The position numbers and the translations under genes are program-made. This document shows positions 51,678 to 57,325 of a stretch of 64,000 bases of DNA, piece by piece (position 1 is the first letter of the stretch; each line of letters opens with the position of its first letter). The notes under the pieces are model-generated. The model made no database searches. It had not been told where the DNA came from and saw only the letters and a list, made by a program, of their open reading frames with translations. The DNA comes from Pseudobacteriovorax antillogorgiicola. Lineage in GTDB: Bacteria > Bdellovibrionota_B > Oligoflexia > Oligoflexales > RGVZ01. The stretch lies in assembly GCA_945865565.1 (NCBI GenBank), contig CAMBEK010000003.1, forward strand, positions 1-64,000, written 5' to 3'.

Positions 51678-52097
51678 GGTCGGGCTCTCGATCTGGTGAA
51701 GTCGCGCAGAGTCTAACCGCAAACTTCAAAACATATCCAGAGAATTCTTTTTCCCATCACATCATGTTCGAAAATAATTGGCGCACCCGAAAAGTCCTGT
51801 ATTGGCGATCAACCAAGGCGCAGGTGACGATCGATCCGATTGACGATATCGTTCATGGCAATGGCATCTGGAGCATCACCCTTGAGGTATTCCCATCGCA
51901 TGGGGCAGAGCAAAGCAACAGGATGGCTGCAAAAGCTTGGTACACAGAACCTCTGAGGGAAAACCAAGTATCAATTTCGACGCGCATTCTATGTTATTTT
52001 AATGAAAATATGAAATTATTAATGTATTTAACGATGGCTTACGTAAACACCTGAAAGCGCAGTCATTTTTTTCACAATCTTTTCTGGCTGACTCTCC

Positions 52098-53567
52098 ATG
52101 AATATCGAACCGGTAAAAATCGCCCTCGGCAGCCTCCACCACCAGATCATGAACACCTTCGGAAGCCTTTACGGAATCTGCGCCGCAGCCATGTTTGTCC
52201 TGACGTGCCTGGCCCTTATTAGCCCACTTTCAAGGATTCGCATCGGGGGGCCCGAGGCACAACCTGTCATGTCGACCTGGCGCTGGATCGCCACCAGCAT
52301 CACATCCACCGTGGCGACAGGACTTTTTTTCTGGTCTGCCGCTGAACCCGTCGCACATCTGGCGTCCCCATCGCCATCGTCTGGCGACCTACCCTTCAGT
52401 GCCGGAGCCGCATCCAGCGCGTTGGGACACCTGTACTTGCACTGGACCCTAGTGCCGTATGCGATCTACGTCGTGCCGTCTTTGGTATTTGCCATCGCCC
52501 ACTACAACCGCGGAGCAGCGCCCGGCGTCTGTGCAACGCACCATGGCGCGATGCCCGCGAAACTTGCCCGCGCGCGTGGCATCGGCAACGTGATCGAAAA
52601 AATCTCCATGATGAGCCTGACCTTTGGAATCGCCGCCTCGGTCGGAACGGGAATCCTGATGGTTACGCGCGGCGCGACCATTATGAGCGACCTTGCCGGA
52701 TCCCAAATTTCATTCACAAGCATGTTCAACATCACAACGATTCTGCTCATCGCAACTTGCGCGATTGTGATCATGGCGGGGCGCAACCACGGGATCGGTC
52801 GCCTGGCATCCATTAACAGCCTCATTTTTATCGCCATCGCAGTCGCTGTGCTTGCTGTGGGGCCGACGTCCTTCATTACCAGCCAGTCAAAAATCGGCGT
52901 GCACAAATTCTTAACAGGACTCTTCAGCGCAACATCGGGCTCGGGCCGCGAAATGGACCGGGCTTGGCGGCAGGACTGGACGTTATTTTATTGGACGGCC
53001 TGGATCGCATGGGCTCCGGTAACTGCACTTTTTTTGGGCGGCATCGCCCGCGGCAGGACGGTTCGGGCATTTCTCACGGTGAATTTTTTGGTTCCGGCGA
53101 TCTTCACTGGAATCTTGATGAGCATTTTTGGTTCAACCGTACTCTATCTGCAAACATCCAGCGGCATGCCCCTGGCTCAAGAATTTCAAAAGACCGGTGC
53201 CGATGCGGTGGTCTACATGGCCCTCGGGGCTTTGCCTTACGCCAACACCTTTCGAACGGTCTTTACCATCCTGGCCTTCATGTCCCTTGTTTCACTTTGC
53301 TCAAGCGCCTTGGCATCCCTGGCAGGAATGAGTTCAGGAAAAACGCGAATTGGACAAGAGCGCGGCACCGTTACAGCCTGGAGCCTGGCCATCAGCGCCA
53401 TCATTATTGTGACGGTCAACGGTTCGGGGGTTGACGGCGTTCGGATGCTGGCAAATCTCGGTGCCTTCCCCATGCTGTTCCTTCAACTCATGTCGGGTGT
53501 TGCCCTGACAATAATGTTACTCGACCCGTCACGCGCGCGTTGGCAAGATAAGAAGCAGGGGGGATAA
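52098..53567 (+). CDS. BCCT-family (betaine/carnitine/choline-type) transporter
   Basis: TGLFFWSAAEPVAHL, LHWTLVPYAIYVVPSLVFAIAHYNR, LFYWTAWIAWAPVTALFLGGIARGRTVRAFL. Confidence 0.85.
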   Translation: MNIEPVKIALGSLHHQIMNTFGSLYGICAAAMFVLTCLALISPLSRIRIGGPEAQPVMSTWRWIATSITSTVATGLFFWSAAEPVAHLASPSPSSGDLPFSAGAASSALGHLYLHWTLVPYAIYVVPSLVFAIAHYNRGAAPGVCATHHGAMPAKLARARGIGNVIEKISMMSLTFGIAASVGTGILMVTRGATIMSDLAGSQISFTSMFNITTILLIATCAIVIMAGRNHGIGRLASINSLIFIAIAVAVLAVGPTSFITSQSKIGVHKFLTGLFSATSGSGREMDRAWRQDWTLFYWTAWIAWAPVTALFLGGIARGRTVRAFLTVNFLVPAIFTGILMSIFGSTVLYLQTSSGMPLAQEFQKTGADAVVYMALGALPYANTFRTVFTILAFMSLVSLCSSALASLAGMSSGKTRIGQERGTVTAWSLAISAIIIVTVNGSGVDGVRMLANLGAFPMLFLQLMSGVALTIMLLDPSRARWQDKKQGG

Positions 53568-53568
53568 C

Positions 53569-54465
53569 ATGACATCACAAAAACCATCATCCGTGCTCCA
53601 TCAGAAACTGCGTGAACTCAACTCCTGGGACAAGATTGTCCGCCTGGACAAGTATCCTGTTCACGACCTGGAAAGTCTGGCCGCACGCAAGCTCATCGAC
53701 GCGGGCCGGGAAAATATGGCCCGCCTTGGCGCCTTTGAAATGCCGGATTTCGTAACACCGGCAGCCATTGAGGCCCTGCAATTGGAAAGCGCCATCCTGG
53801 AACACTCTGCCTTTTTCAAACCGGTCGTTGGCAATCCGTACCTTACCCCGGAAGACCCTGGCCTTCCTGCTGACCATCCAAACCGGATGACGGAAACCAC
53901 CCGCGTAGGAGTCATTGCCTACGACCAGTACCCGCTTGATTCGCTGCTGCGTCGAATTTACGAGTGGGATCCTCTGATGAACTTTGTCGGAAAAATTTTA
54001 AATCTGCCAGAAATCCATCGCTATGCTGACCCGATGGGGGGATTGAATCTATCCGTAATGACCAAGGGCGATTACTTGCGCTGGCATTTTGATCAAGCCG
54101 ATTTTGTAACCTCCCTGGCCGTCCAGAGTTCAACGGAGGGCGGAGAATTCGAATACGCACCTTTGATCCGGACGACGGACAACGAACGCTACGATGACGT
54201 TCGCAGCGTTTTAAAGGGCGATCGCAAGCAAGTCACCACCATCACGAACAATCCAGGCACGCTGGTCTTGTTCCAGGGGCGCTGGTCGATGCATCGCGTA
54301 ACCCCGGTCCAAGGAACCAAGAGCCGCCTCATGGGACTTTTCGGATTTGATTCAAAGCCAGGGGTGATGAGTTCACCGCACCTTTACGATATCCGCTACG
54401 GAAGAACGACGGTGGCAAAAGAACCACCGACTTTTGAGGATTATGACCATGCCCGCAAGAAGTGA
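53569..54465 (+). CDS. Fe(II)/2-oxoglutarate-dependent oxygenase (HalD/ArpA-like)
   Basis: LRWHFDQADFVTSLAVQSSTEGGEFEYAP (HxD), PGTLVLFQGRWSMHRVTPVQGTKSRLMGLFGFD (distal His/Arg). Confidence 0.75.
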   Translation: MTSQKPSSVLHQKLRELNSWDKIVRLDKYPVHDLESLAARKLIDAGRENMARLGAFEMPDFVTPAAIEALQLESAILEHSAFFKPVVGNPYLTPEDPGLPADHPNRMTETTRVGVIAYDQYPLDSLLRRIYEWDPLMNFVGKILNLPEIHRYADPMGGLNLSVMTKGDYLRWHFDQADFVTSLAVQSSTEGGEFEYAPLIRTTDNERYDDVRSVLKGDRKQVTTITNNPGTLVLFQGRWSMHRVTPVQGTKSRLMGLFGFDSKPGVMSSPHLYDIRYGRTTVAKEPPTFEDYDHARKK

Positions 54466-55966
54466 CGCGTTAAGCTGGATTACTGCGACCGTAAAAAACA
54501 AAAAAAATGGCGCCTTCGTCGGCGGCGAGTGGCACCGGGATGACCCTTCAAAATCAGCGCACCTGATCAAGGTGATCAATCCTGCCACTGGAGAAATTCT
54601 TTGCGAACTGCGTGAGTCAGACAAAAGCGTCGTTGATCATGCAGCAGCCGCAGCACTTGCCGCATTTACATCCGGCCCCTGGACCAAATGGCCTCGCTCA
54701 GAACGGGCTGCGGCCCTGATCAAGATTGGTGCGGAGATCCGCAAGCACCATCATGAACTTGCCGCACTGGAAACGCTCTGTAACGGAAAAACATGGGCCG
54801 AGTCGTTCCATGACGACATCCCTGAATCCGCCAGTGTCTTTGATTACTATGCGGGTTGGATTGACAAGATTTACGGCGAGACGTGTCCTGTCGAACAGGG
54901 ATTTGTAAATTTCACCCTGCGCGAATCCGTCGGACCCTGTGCACTCATCGTTCCATGGAATTTCCCCCTTTTGCTTGCTTGCTGGAAGATTGCACCGGCA
55001 CTGGCCATGGGAAATACGGTGGTGATCAAGCCGTCGCCACAAACTTCCCTGTCGATGCTGCGTCTGGCTGAGATCATCCACGATGCTAAAATTTTGCCAG
55101 CAGGTGTTTTCAATGTCGTCGTGGGAGGCGGACCCACTGGCGAAGCCCTGACCCACAACGACGCCATTGCGAAAGTTTCCTTCACTGGCGGAACGGATAC
55201 GGGGCGTGCTGTCTTGAAGGGATCTGCCGATTCTAACCTGAAATCTGTCACCCTTGAACTCGGTGGGAAATCACCAAATATTATTTTTGGTGATGCGAAA
55301 AATTTGCAAGCCGTCATTGACCGGTCGTTTCAAGCGATGTTCTCGCACAAGGGCGAGAAATGTTCCGAACCGACGCGGCTGATTGTCCACCGCAGCCTGC
55401 ATGACAAGGTTGTTACCGCGTTGGTGGAAAAGGCAGAGAAAACACGTTGCGGAGATCCTTTCGCCGACACGACCGACCAAGGTCCGCAGTGCTTTGAAGG
55501 CCACATGGAACGGATCCTTGGTTACATCAAGGCAGGTAAGGCCGAGGGCGCCAAGTGCGTTGCCGGAGGCAACCGCGACACAGCCGGAGACAATGCAAAA
55601 GGCTACTTCGTGCGTCCGACGATTTTCACTGGCGTGACTCGTGAAATGAAAATCTTTCAAGAAGAAATCTTTGGACCAGTTTTGGCCGTGAGTGTTTTTG
55701 ACACGGAGGAAGAAGCCATTGAGTTGGCAAATGCCACCCGCTACGGTTTGGCGGCAGGCTTGTACACAGCAGATGCGGACCGGGCCATGCGCGTATCGCG
55801 TCGCCTCGATGCCGGAATGGTCTTCGTCAACCGTTATGGATGCTACGATTTTTCAAGTCCGTTTGGTGGATTCAAGCAGAGCGGCTGGGGCAAAGAGATG
55901 GCGATTCATTCGCTGGAGTCTTACACGCGGCGGAAGTCGATCTGGTTCGCTGTGGCTCCGAACTGA
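54449..55966 (+). CDS. Aldehyde dehydrogenase (betaine-aldehyde-dehydrogenase-like)
   Basis: PWNFPLLLACWKIAPALAMGNTVVIKPS, FTGGTDTGRAVL, LELGGKSPNIIF, HKGEKCSEPTRL, EIFGPVLAV. Confidence 0.94.
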   Translation: MPARSDALSWITATVKNKKNGAFVGGEWHRDDPSKSAHLIKVINPATGEILCELRESDKSVVDHAAAAALAAFTSGPWTKWPRSERAAALIKIGAEIRKHHHELAALETLCNGKTWAESFHDDIPESASVFDYYAGWIDKIYGETCPVEQGFVNFTLRESVGPCALIVPWNFPLLLACWKIAPALAMGNTVVIKPSPQTSLSMLRLAEIIHDAKILPAGVFNVVVGGGPTGEALTHNDAIAKVSFTGGTDTGRAVLKGSADSNLKSVTLELGGKSPNIIFGDAKNLQAVIDRSFQAMFSHKGEKCSEPTRLIVHRSLHDKVVTALVEKAEKTRCGDPFADTTDQGPQCFEGHMERILGYIKAGKAEGAKCVAGGNRDTAGDNAKGYFVRPTIFTGVTREMKIFQEEIFGPVLAVSVFDTEEEAIELANATRYGLAAGLYTADADRAMRVSRRLDAGMVFVNRYGCYDFSSPFGGFKQSGWGKEMAIHSLESYTRRKSIWFAVAPN

Positions 55967-55993
55967 ACGGCGCAGGCCATAAAGGAAAATCTT

Positions 55994-57325
55994 TTGTTTT
56001 TCCCGCAAGTCAAAAACATAATTTTCTCCGAAGGGGTCGGATCCTGCTGGCAGGAGGATATTGCTGCGGTCCGTGAGTCATGGACCGCGGCCGGTGACCG
56101 CTGGAAGACACACTCGCCAAATGGTTCGATGCAATTCATTCGACAACCAGCACGAGTTCTTTCCATCGGGCTTCAATTGGAGTCTGGCGATACGGCCTGG
56201 GGCGATTGCCTGAGCGTTTCGTTTGCCGGAAAATCCGGACGCGACCAAGCCATTCAAACACACAGTGCGCGCGAGGCGCTTCAACCAAGAAATCTTTTGG
56301 CGGAACTTCAAAACCTGCAGGGTCACAGCCTTCGTGAGGTCGAGAGTTCTTTGAGCAAGACGTTTTCAGACTGGACACCAGCCATCCGGTTTGGAGTCAG
56401 CCAAGCGCTGGTCAACGCTGTGGCAACAGCAAATCAAAAGTTGCCTTGTGACGTCCTCCAGGAAGCCTTGGAATCTGCGGGGGCCGCGACGGCGCCTGCC
56501 CTGCAGGGTTCCTGTGGCAGCAACTGGCACGATGCCGTTGAGCGCATGATCGTGGCCGGGGTGGAATATTTACCGCAAGGGCAATTTGAAAATCTCGCAA
56601 AAGAACTTGGGCCCGACGGCTCCAGACTTTTTTTATACATCGACTGGCTCAAAGGGCGGATTGCTGAATTGACTCCCGTCAGCCTGGCTGGACCAAATGC
56701 ACGACGCGTCATCACGCTGGATTTTCATGGTGCCCTCGGCCAGATATTTCAGGGCAAGAGCGCTGCCATCGCAGATTACATCGAGCAGTTGACGCAAGCC
56801 TGCAAACCATTTGATCTGCACGTTGAAAGTCCCGTCGTTGGGGGCAACTTTGATGAGCATGTTGTTCAAGTGTCGGAACTGACCAGGATGCTCCGTGCGC
56901 GCGGTTGTTCGGTGAAAATCATCGCCGACGAGTGGGCCAATTCCCTGGAACAGATAAAAATTCTAGCGACCAAAAAAGTCGTCGATGGAATTCACATCAA
57001 GATGCCTGACACCGGCTCCTTGCTGGAGTCAGGTCGGGCTGTTGCCATTTGCAAGGCAGAGGGTTTATTTGTTTTACTGGGTGGCAGCTGCACAGAGACA
57101 GCAACGTCCGCACGGCTTGCCGCGCATCTGGCCATGGCGACTGGTCCTGACGCGTTGCTCGTAAAGCCGGGAATCTCGTTTGATGAGGGATTCAGTTTGA
57201 TCACCAACGAACTCGCGACGATTCAATCCTTGCGCGCAATCCGCGCGGCGGATTCAGACAGCCATGACTCCACCAAGGGAAACGAGTCCAGTGCGGCGAA
57301 ACGGCCAGCGACCACATCCGTATGA
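55994..57325 (+). CDS. Methylaspartate ammonia-lyase-like enolase-superfamily enzyme (divergent)
   Basis: YGDC-like AWGDCLSVSFAGKSGRD, AIRFGVSQALVNAVA, LHVESPVVGG, IIADEWANSLEQIK, GIHIKMPDTG, LGGSCTETATSARLAAHLAMATGPDALLVKPGISFDEGFSLITNEL follow the MAL family end to end. Confidence 0.82.
   Translation: MFFPQVKNIIFSEGVGSCWQEDIAAVRESWTAAGDRWKTHSPNGSMQFIRQPARVLSIGLQLESGDTAWGDCLSVSFAGKSGRDQAIQTHSAREALQPRNLLAELQNLQGHSLREVESSLSKTFSDWTPAIRFGVSQALVNAVATANQKLPCDVLQEALESAGAATAPALQGSCGSNWHDAVERMIVAGVEYLPQGQFENLAKELGPDGSRLFLYIDWLKGRIAELTPVSLAGPNARRVITLDFHGALGQIFQGKSAAIADYIEQLTQACKPFDLHVESPVVGGNFDEHVVQVSELTRMLRARGCSVKIIADEWANSLEQIKILATKKVVDGIHIKMPDTGSLLESGRAVAICKAEGLFVLLGGSCTETATSARLAAHLAMATGPDALLVKPGISFDEGFSLITNELATIQSLRAIRAADSDSHDSTKGNESSAAKRPATTSV

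Follow-up and report, generated by a model that had tools for sequence, protein, structure and literature searches.

The window analysed here, a 64,000-nucleotide stretch of Pseudobacteriovorax antillogorgiicola DNA (contig CAMBEK010000003.1, positions 1 to 64,000), carries between 52098 and 57325 four same-strand genes for a BCCT-family transporter, an Fe(II)/2-oxoglutarate (2OG) oxygenase, an aldehyde dehydrogenase (ALDH) and a C-N lyase resembling methylaspartate ammonia-lyase (MAL). A first-pass annotation made from the letters alone had described this tight cluster and named its families, and on both counts it was right: the open reading frame (ORF) positions reproduce the gap, overlap and gap between the genes, and Pfam profile matches make the family assignments of all four genes certain. 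The features are as follows.

52098..53567, + strand: BCCT-family transporter ORF, 489 amino acids, without transmembrane helix 1 (TM1) (PF02028, E 1.4e-82, 278 bits)
52050..52097, + strand: likely remnant of the BCCT TM1 (PESAVIFFTIFSG*LS), from an HMM match that starts at 52059 and crosses one TGA and from alignment with relatives
53569..54465, + strand: Fe(II)/2OG oxygenase of the BesD/HalB/HalD fold, hydroxylase type (H173-x-D175...H242, R253; PF23169 HalD, E 1.8e-9; further profiles and an AlphaFold model)
54443..55966, + strand: ALDH of a distinct subfamily (PF00171, E 1.1e-164; catalytic motif GEKC[ST]xPTR)
55994..57325, + strand: MAL-like C-N lyase (MAAL_C, 1.4e-69; MAAL_N, 4.4e-25; K331, D238, E273 and D307 retained)
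57233..57325, + strand: C-terminal extension of the lyase past the end of its relatives and into a convergent hydrolase gene (alignment, ORF list)

The transporter frame ends at 53567 and the oxygenase opens with ATG at 53569, leaving a gap of 1 nt. The oxygenase runs to its stop codon at 54465 and overlaps the ALDH, whose frame opens with TTG at 54434 and more likely starts at ATG 54443 or 54449, behind a GAGG, and 27 nt lie between the ALDH stop codon at 55966 and the lyase TTG at 55994.

We compared this cluster with a family sample of 10 genomes, including the window genome, and a phylum sample of ~58 genomes. The lyase occurs in three of the ten family genomes (the window genome, G005 and G004, from two genera) and was not found elsewhere in the 58-genome phylum sample. 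All three have the identical gene order oxygenase-ALDH-lyase with different flanks, and the proteins of the two relatives are 60 and 56% (oxygenase), about 67 and 59% (ALDH) and 40 and 35% (lyase) identical to those of the window. Because the same order recurs at 35-67% identity amid different flanks, oxygenase, ALDH and lyase are a conserved unit, in line with the catabolic cluster first proposed. Conserved co-occurrence in other genomes, which the first-pass annotation had set as its test, is thus found for these three genes and not for the transporter, which is part of the cluster in the window alone. A search of viral contigs found no relatives of the oxygenase or the lyase. Another relative, G007, holds a 36-residue fragment of a MAL-like C-terminus (locus L008, 3209-3316; 58% identical), consistent with loss of the operon.

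The window lyase has the full-length MAL fold, with matches to MAL structures in the PDB at 1e-55, and it scores 276.1 bits against the MAL equivalog TIGR01502, just under the curated cut-off of 286, as might be expected of an ordinary mesaconate-pathway MAL with unrelated neighbours. We aligned the lyases of the window, G005 and G004 to CtMAL and to the classical MALs of Rhizobium, Gemmobacter and Ensifer. All three retain K331, D238, E273, D307, C361 and L384, and all three share eight pocket changes (Q73S, Q172S, H194Q, Q329H, Y240H, Y356L, T360S and F170Q/H). MAL holds the amino group of its substrate with Q172 and, by way of water, Q73; its ligands for the enolate carboxylate are H194 and Q329 and those for the C1 carboxylate T360 and C361, and T360S is nearly neutral in CaMAL (PMC7241714). 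CtMAL is also able to add dimethylamine to fumarate (PMC12363623). By this comparison the three lyases have kept the base, metal and carboxylate sites, swapped the enolate pair and lost the amine site, from which we infer that the enzyme removes a different amine from an aspartate-like acid. The classical Rhizobium, Ensifer and Gemmobacter MALs, which sit beside glmS/glmE, retain the amine, enolate and carboxylate contacts, and the Myxococcota-type phylum MALs (G096, G267 and G362) are likewise classical and lie in glmS/L/E-type loci. Genome searches found no glutamate mutase subunit E in the window genome, G004 or G005, so the mesaconate pathway cannot explain the lyase, and classical mesaconate fermentation is rejected on this absence together with the changed active site. 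The first-pass annotation had argued the same from the missing mutase, and the non-classical character that it gave the lyase is supported by the loss of Q73 and Q172 in all three proteins. Given also the conserved order with ALDH and oxygenase, an ordinary MAL is extremely improbable. The window lyase frame runs ~30 codons past the end of its relatives and overlaps a convergent secreted alpha/beta-hydrolase gene by ~100 bp (57223-57325), as if a stop codon had been lost.

The best NCBIfam model for the window ALDH is TIGR01804 (487.5 bits, short of the curated cut-off of 668.6). Its closest relatives, 53-57% identical against a background of at most about 45%, are encoded on plasmids of Priestia, Ensifer and Vibrio. 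These plasmid ALDHs form a single clade (100/100 support) with five ALDHs of the window phylum and share with them the unique motif GEKC[ST]xPTR, where seven background ALDHs have GQxC, which marks them as true orthologues of the window enzyme. Next to the ALDH, each of the three plasmids encodes an aspartase/fumarase-superfamily lyase (PF00206), and the same loci also hold a zinc alcohol dehydrogenase or an aldo/keto reductase. AspB contacts the amine through H188 and N142 and has an alpha-carboxylate pocket made up of T187, M321, K324 and N326 (PMC11744663). Compared with AspB, the plasmid lyases have Cys for H188, Ser or Ala for N142 and Ile for T101, and retain T187, the catalytic Ser loop GSSxxPGKVN, K324 and N326. 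Two unrelated lyase folds tied to one ALDH have thus given up their contacts to the amine while retaining those to the carboxylate. Since the same change stands beside the same ALDH, the simplest reading is that the common ALDH product is an aspartate with a modified amine, and this amine is probably quaternary. More broadly, we consider it likely that the ALDH produces an aspartate with an altered amine and that the lyase then cleaves this product. As the alpha-carboxylate contacts are kept in both folds (T187/K324/N326 in the aspartase fold, S360/C361 in the MAL fold), a dicarboxylate is the likelier substrate, and a route from homocholine or beta-alanine betaine to acrylate was rejected on the same contacts. 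Because the plasmid ALDHs have alcohol-oxidising neighbours, the aldehyde would be made from an alcohol, and in the window the oxygenase would fill the place of the alcohol-oxidising enzyme.

A link to quaternary amines, as first proposed from the transporter, is supported by the BCCT gene in the window, by two BCCTs at the Vibrio ALDH locus and by genome G042, whose oxygenase-ALDH pair is followed on the same strand by an ABC ATPase and an OpuAC glycine-betaine-type binding protein. The window BCCT motif HWTLVPYAIY is common to one BCCT subclade, and a Priestia-type lyase is fused to a same-motif BCCT in Peribacillus. There, on a plasmid of Peribacillus sp. R9-11 (L100, 8998-11556), one ORF joins an aspartase-like lyase without its C-terminal end to a BCCT without its first helix, and may be either a natural fusion or a deletion scar.

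The window oxygenase matches the profiles of HalB (1.3e-10) and lysine hydroxylase (1e-8), and the top PDB matches of its AlphaFold model (pLDDT 79; C-terminus 268-298 unreliable) are all HalB, Hydrox, HalD or BesD (Foldseek, 1e-14). Its iron motif is H173-F-D175 and every aligned relative has HxD, not the HxG/A of halogenases, so a halogenase reading was rejected. In BesD the lysine ammonium groups are bound by D239, D143 and E123 and the carboxylate by R77, H137 and W241 (PMC13244439). At ~15% identity, D143, E123 and H137 align with Gln176, Met156 and Leu170 of the window oxygenase, which tentatively suggests that ammonium-binding acids were lost in this enzyme too. Pfam recognises HalD, 2OG-FeII_Oxy_3 and WelO5 only, and no hydroxylase family of the TauD/BBOX/TMLH type. 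The analogy with carnitine biosynthesis (hydroxylation, C-C cleavage, aldehyde oxidation) that the first-pass annotation had drawn does not hold: the oxygenase is not a carnitine-pathway hydroxylase, there is no aldolase-like gene and no sign of C-C cleavage. Carnitine-like hydroxylation followed by a retro-aldol step was rejected on the oxygenase family and the missing aldolase.

The choice of betaine is guided by a second unit near the ALDH-lyase pair in Vibrio and Priestia, which comprises an SDR, an FAD enzyme, an FGGY kinase and an RpiR/SIS-type regulator. The best solved relatives of the FAD enzyme are alkyl-dihydroxyacetonephosphate (alkyl-DHAP) synthases (1e-46), which exchange groups at the glycerol ether carbon. 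The SDR/FAD enzyme/FGGY unit (loci L099, L097, L101, L102 and L103) adjoins an osmoprotectant ABC importer and a glycerol-3-phosphate-responsive antiterminator in Enterococcus, and such an antiterminator in Streptomyces. With its RpiR/SIS regulator, ETF, osmoprotectant ABC or antiterminator it is a candidate glycerol-ether cleavage pathway of several phyla in its own right. Its presence near the ALDH-lyase pair is in keeping with a substrate in which a betaine is joined to glycerol by an ether bond. One such ether is glyceryl-N,N,N-trimethylhomoserine, the head group of the betaine lipid DGTS, and algae are rich in betaine lipids. The corresponding alcohol, homoserine betaine, serves Trichodesmium as its main compatible solute and has been measured in free form in water from reefs and seagrass (PMC5864184, PMC13403184).

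We propose, with a probability of roughly 45%, that the cluster is a catabolic operon for a homoserine-type betaine, either free or as its glyceryl ether, the DGTS head group. The BCCT protein or another betaine importer would bring in homoserine betaine (N,N,N-trimethylhomoserine) or its glyceryl ether, and the 2OG oxygenase would hydroxylate C4, the oxygen-bearing carbon. The resulting hemiacetal or gem-diol would collapse to 2-(trimethylammonio)-4-oxobutanoate (aspartate-semialdehyde betaine), with release of glycerol if the substrate were the ether, and the ALDH would oxidise this semialdehyde betaine to 2-(trimethylammonio)succinate (aspartate betaine). Finally, Lys331 and Mg2+ of the lyase would abstract the C3 proton, so that trimethylamine would be expelled and fumarate left. 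Families, gene order, conservation, catalytic residues, loss of the amine site and ALDH orthology are read from sequence; substrate, regiochemistry and products are our deduction. More tentatively, the window cluster may represent one of three versions of a hitherto undescribed route for the glyceryl-N,N,N-trimethylhomoserine head group and homoserine betaine. The ether would be opened by the 2OG oxygenase in the window, or by a reverse-running alkyl-DHAP-synthase-like enzyme with a kinase and an SDR in Vibrio and Priestia, and all would share one ALDH subfamily and end in trimethylamine-eliminating lyases that arose separately from MAL and from aspartase.

The same C4 oxidation could also start from a compound whose amine is primary, secondary or otherwise N-substituted, for instance S-methylmethionine or another 4-substituted 2-aminobutyrate, or an opine, and yield fumarate and ammonia or a substituted amine. 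In favour of this, ammonia or a simple amine is the usual leaving group of MAL and aspartase folds, free amino acids are the substrates of the oxygenase fold family, and the Ensifer ALDH-lyase pair stands with a peptide-type, not a betaine, ABC importer. We nevertheless hold this to be unlikely, as the amine-binding residues are lost in both lyase folds, the BesD ammonium ligands E123 and D143 align to Met and Gln in the window oxygenase, and betaine transporters recur at related loci.

The closest oxygenase cousins (about 40-51% identity), at 11 Actinobacteria and Myxococcota loci (L061, L062, L063, L067-L071, L073, L075 and L009), directly adjoin not an ALDH but a protein of the Fae family (PF08714, E down to 1e-49), which activates and captures formaldehyde. 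This pairing is what would be expected if the window oxygenase were an N-demethylase that hydroxylated an N-methyl group of a methylated amine, the ALDH removing the released formaldehyde and the lyase then splitting the amine, methylated or free, from the aspartate-like compound left by demethylation. The window ALDH, however, has a basic residue before its catalytic Cys, and other members of its clade pair with aspartase-like lyases and alcohol dehydrogenases and with no demethylase. As a formaldehyde scavenger that tracks a dicarboxylate lyase would also be odd, we hold N-demethylation to be unlikely. Since ether or C4 oxidation and demethylation both start by hydroxylating a heteroatom-bearing carbon and end when the product collapses to an aldehyde, the two oxygenase branches may differ perhaps only in the carbon attacked; methylguanidine demethylase offers a precedent, compared here for its chemistry only (PMC12508155). 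Other cousins, from Pseudomonas, Caballeronia and two Actinobacteria, are followed by an M24 protein (L018, 8950-11187; L020, 8953-11154; L076, 7396-9659; L077, 7459-9484). The two of these M24 proteins that were tested resemble the DMSP lyase DddP at 330-347 bits (cut-off 600), and the Pseudomonas and Caballeronia loci also hold OpuAC-type betaine-binding proteins.

The transporter frame falls short of a complete 12-helix BCCT. BCCT relatives in the phylum begin ~45 residues earlier, and the frame upstream of the window gene reads PESAVIFFTIFSG and then an in-frame TGA at 52089-52091, with no start codon. The TM1 remnant at 52050-52097 may reflect a sequencing error, a pseudogene start or a genuinely short transporter. 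This missing helix, the ~30 amino acids by which the lyase extends into the convergent gene and the short MAL fragment in G007 are what a degraded, non-functional operon, decaying in the window genome through a lost BCCT start and a shifted lyase stop, would leave behind. The oxygenase, ALDH and lyase frames are intact and retain their catalytic residues, which makes decay quite unlikely.

Several observations weigh against a homoserine-betaine operon. The function of the window BCCT, the sole BCCT of its genome, is doubtful; no BCCT lies in the G004 or G005 clusters, and a search of G005 detected neither BCCT nor OpuAC, so the BCCT evidence for the window genome is weak. Across the phylum, BCCT and oxygenase tend to occur in the same genomes (3/5 versus 4/53; Fisher p 0.01, kinship uncorrected), which is weak support. 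G042 and G011 have the oxygenase-ALDH pair without the lyase. The lost amine-binding residues point to an altered amine and not specifically to trimethylamine, and Q or H at position 170 could bind an amine instead. Finally, the Fae-paired branch of oxygenase cousins suggests formaldehyde release, i.e. demethylation, and marks these genes as a candidate demethylase pair. The general idea of the first-pass annotation, uptake and oxidative breakdown of a betaine or unusual amino acid ending in amine elimination, holds, and its final elimination step is supported; the part that does not carry over is the carnitine analogy.

In the open-licence literature that we searched, no pathway is described for the catabolism of betaine lipids, homoserine betaine or aspartate betaine, and we found no described bacterial breakdown route for betaine lipids or homoserine betaine. 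If the proposal is correct, the GEKC-type ALDH and the stripped-pocket C-N lyase would be marker genes for such a route, the operon would be a new biological source of trimethylamine, and its lyases would act as natural C-N lyases on quaternary amines, an activity for which we found no example.

The cluster can be set beside five known systems. Carnitine biosynthesis and CntAB carnitine degradation are alike in hydroxylation, an aldehyde, an ALDH and quaternary amine transport; the window cluster differs by its oxygenase family, the lack of an aldolase and a final elimination from a dicarboxylate. The window lyase shares with MAL (CtMAL/CaMAL; PF05034/PF07476, TIGR01502) the fold, the length, Lys331, the Mg2+ ligands Asp238, Glu273 and Asp307, Cys361 and Leu384, and differs by the sub-cut-off equivalog score, the eight pocket changes, the absence of glutamate mutase and its oxygenase and ALDH partners. 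With the halogenases BesD, HalB and HalD and the lysine hydroxylase Hydrox the window oxygenase has profile and fold matches and the 2OG core in common, whereas its HxD motif, unconserved lysine-binding acids and His, and about 14-16% identity set it apart. Betaine-aldehyde dehydrogenase (TIGR01804) is the best-scoring NCBIfam model for the window ALDH, which differs by its sub-cut-off score, its GEKC[ST]xPTR motif and its separate, C-N-lyase-linked clade. Finally, the uncharacterised loci of Vibrio pelagius, Ensifer adhaerens and Priestia megaterium differ from the window in the unrelated fold of their lyase, in an alcohol dehydrogenase or aldo/keto reductase that replaces the 2OG oxygenase and, in Vibrio and Priestia, in the ether unit, and they share with it the orthologous ALDH, an amine-stripped C-N lyase and, in Vibrio, the BCCT.

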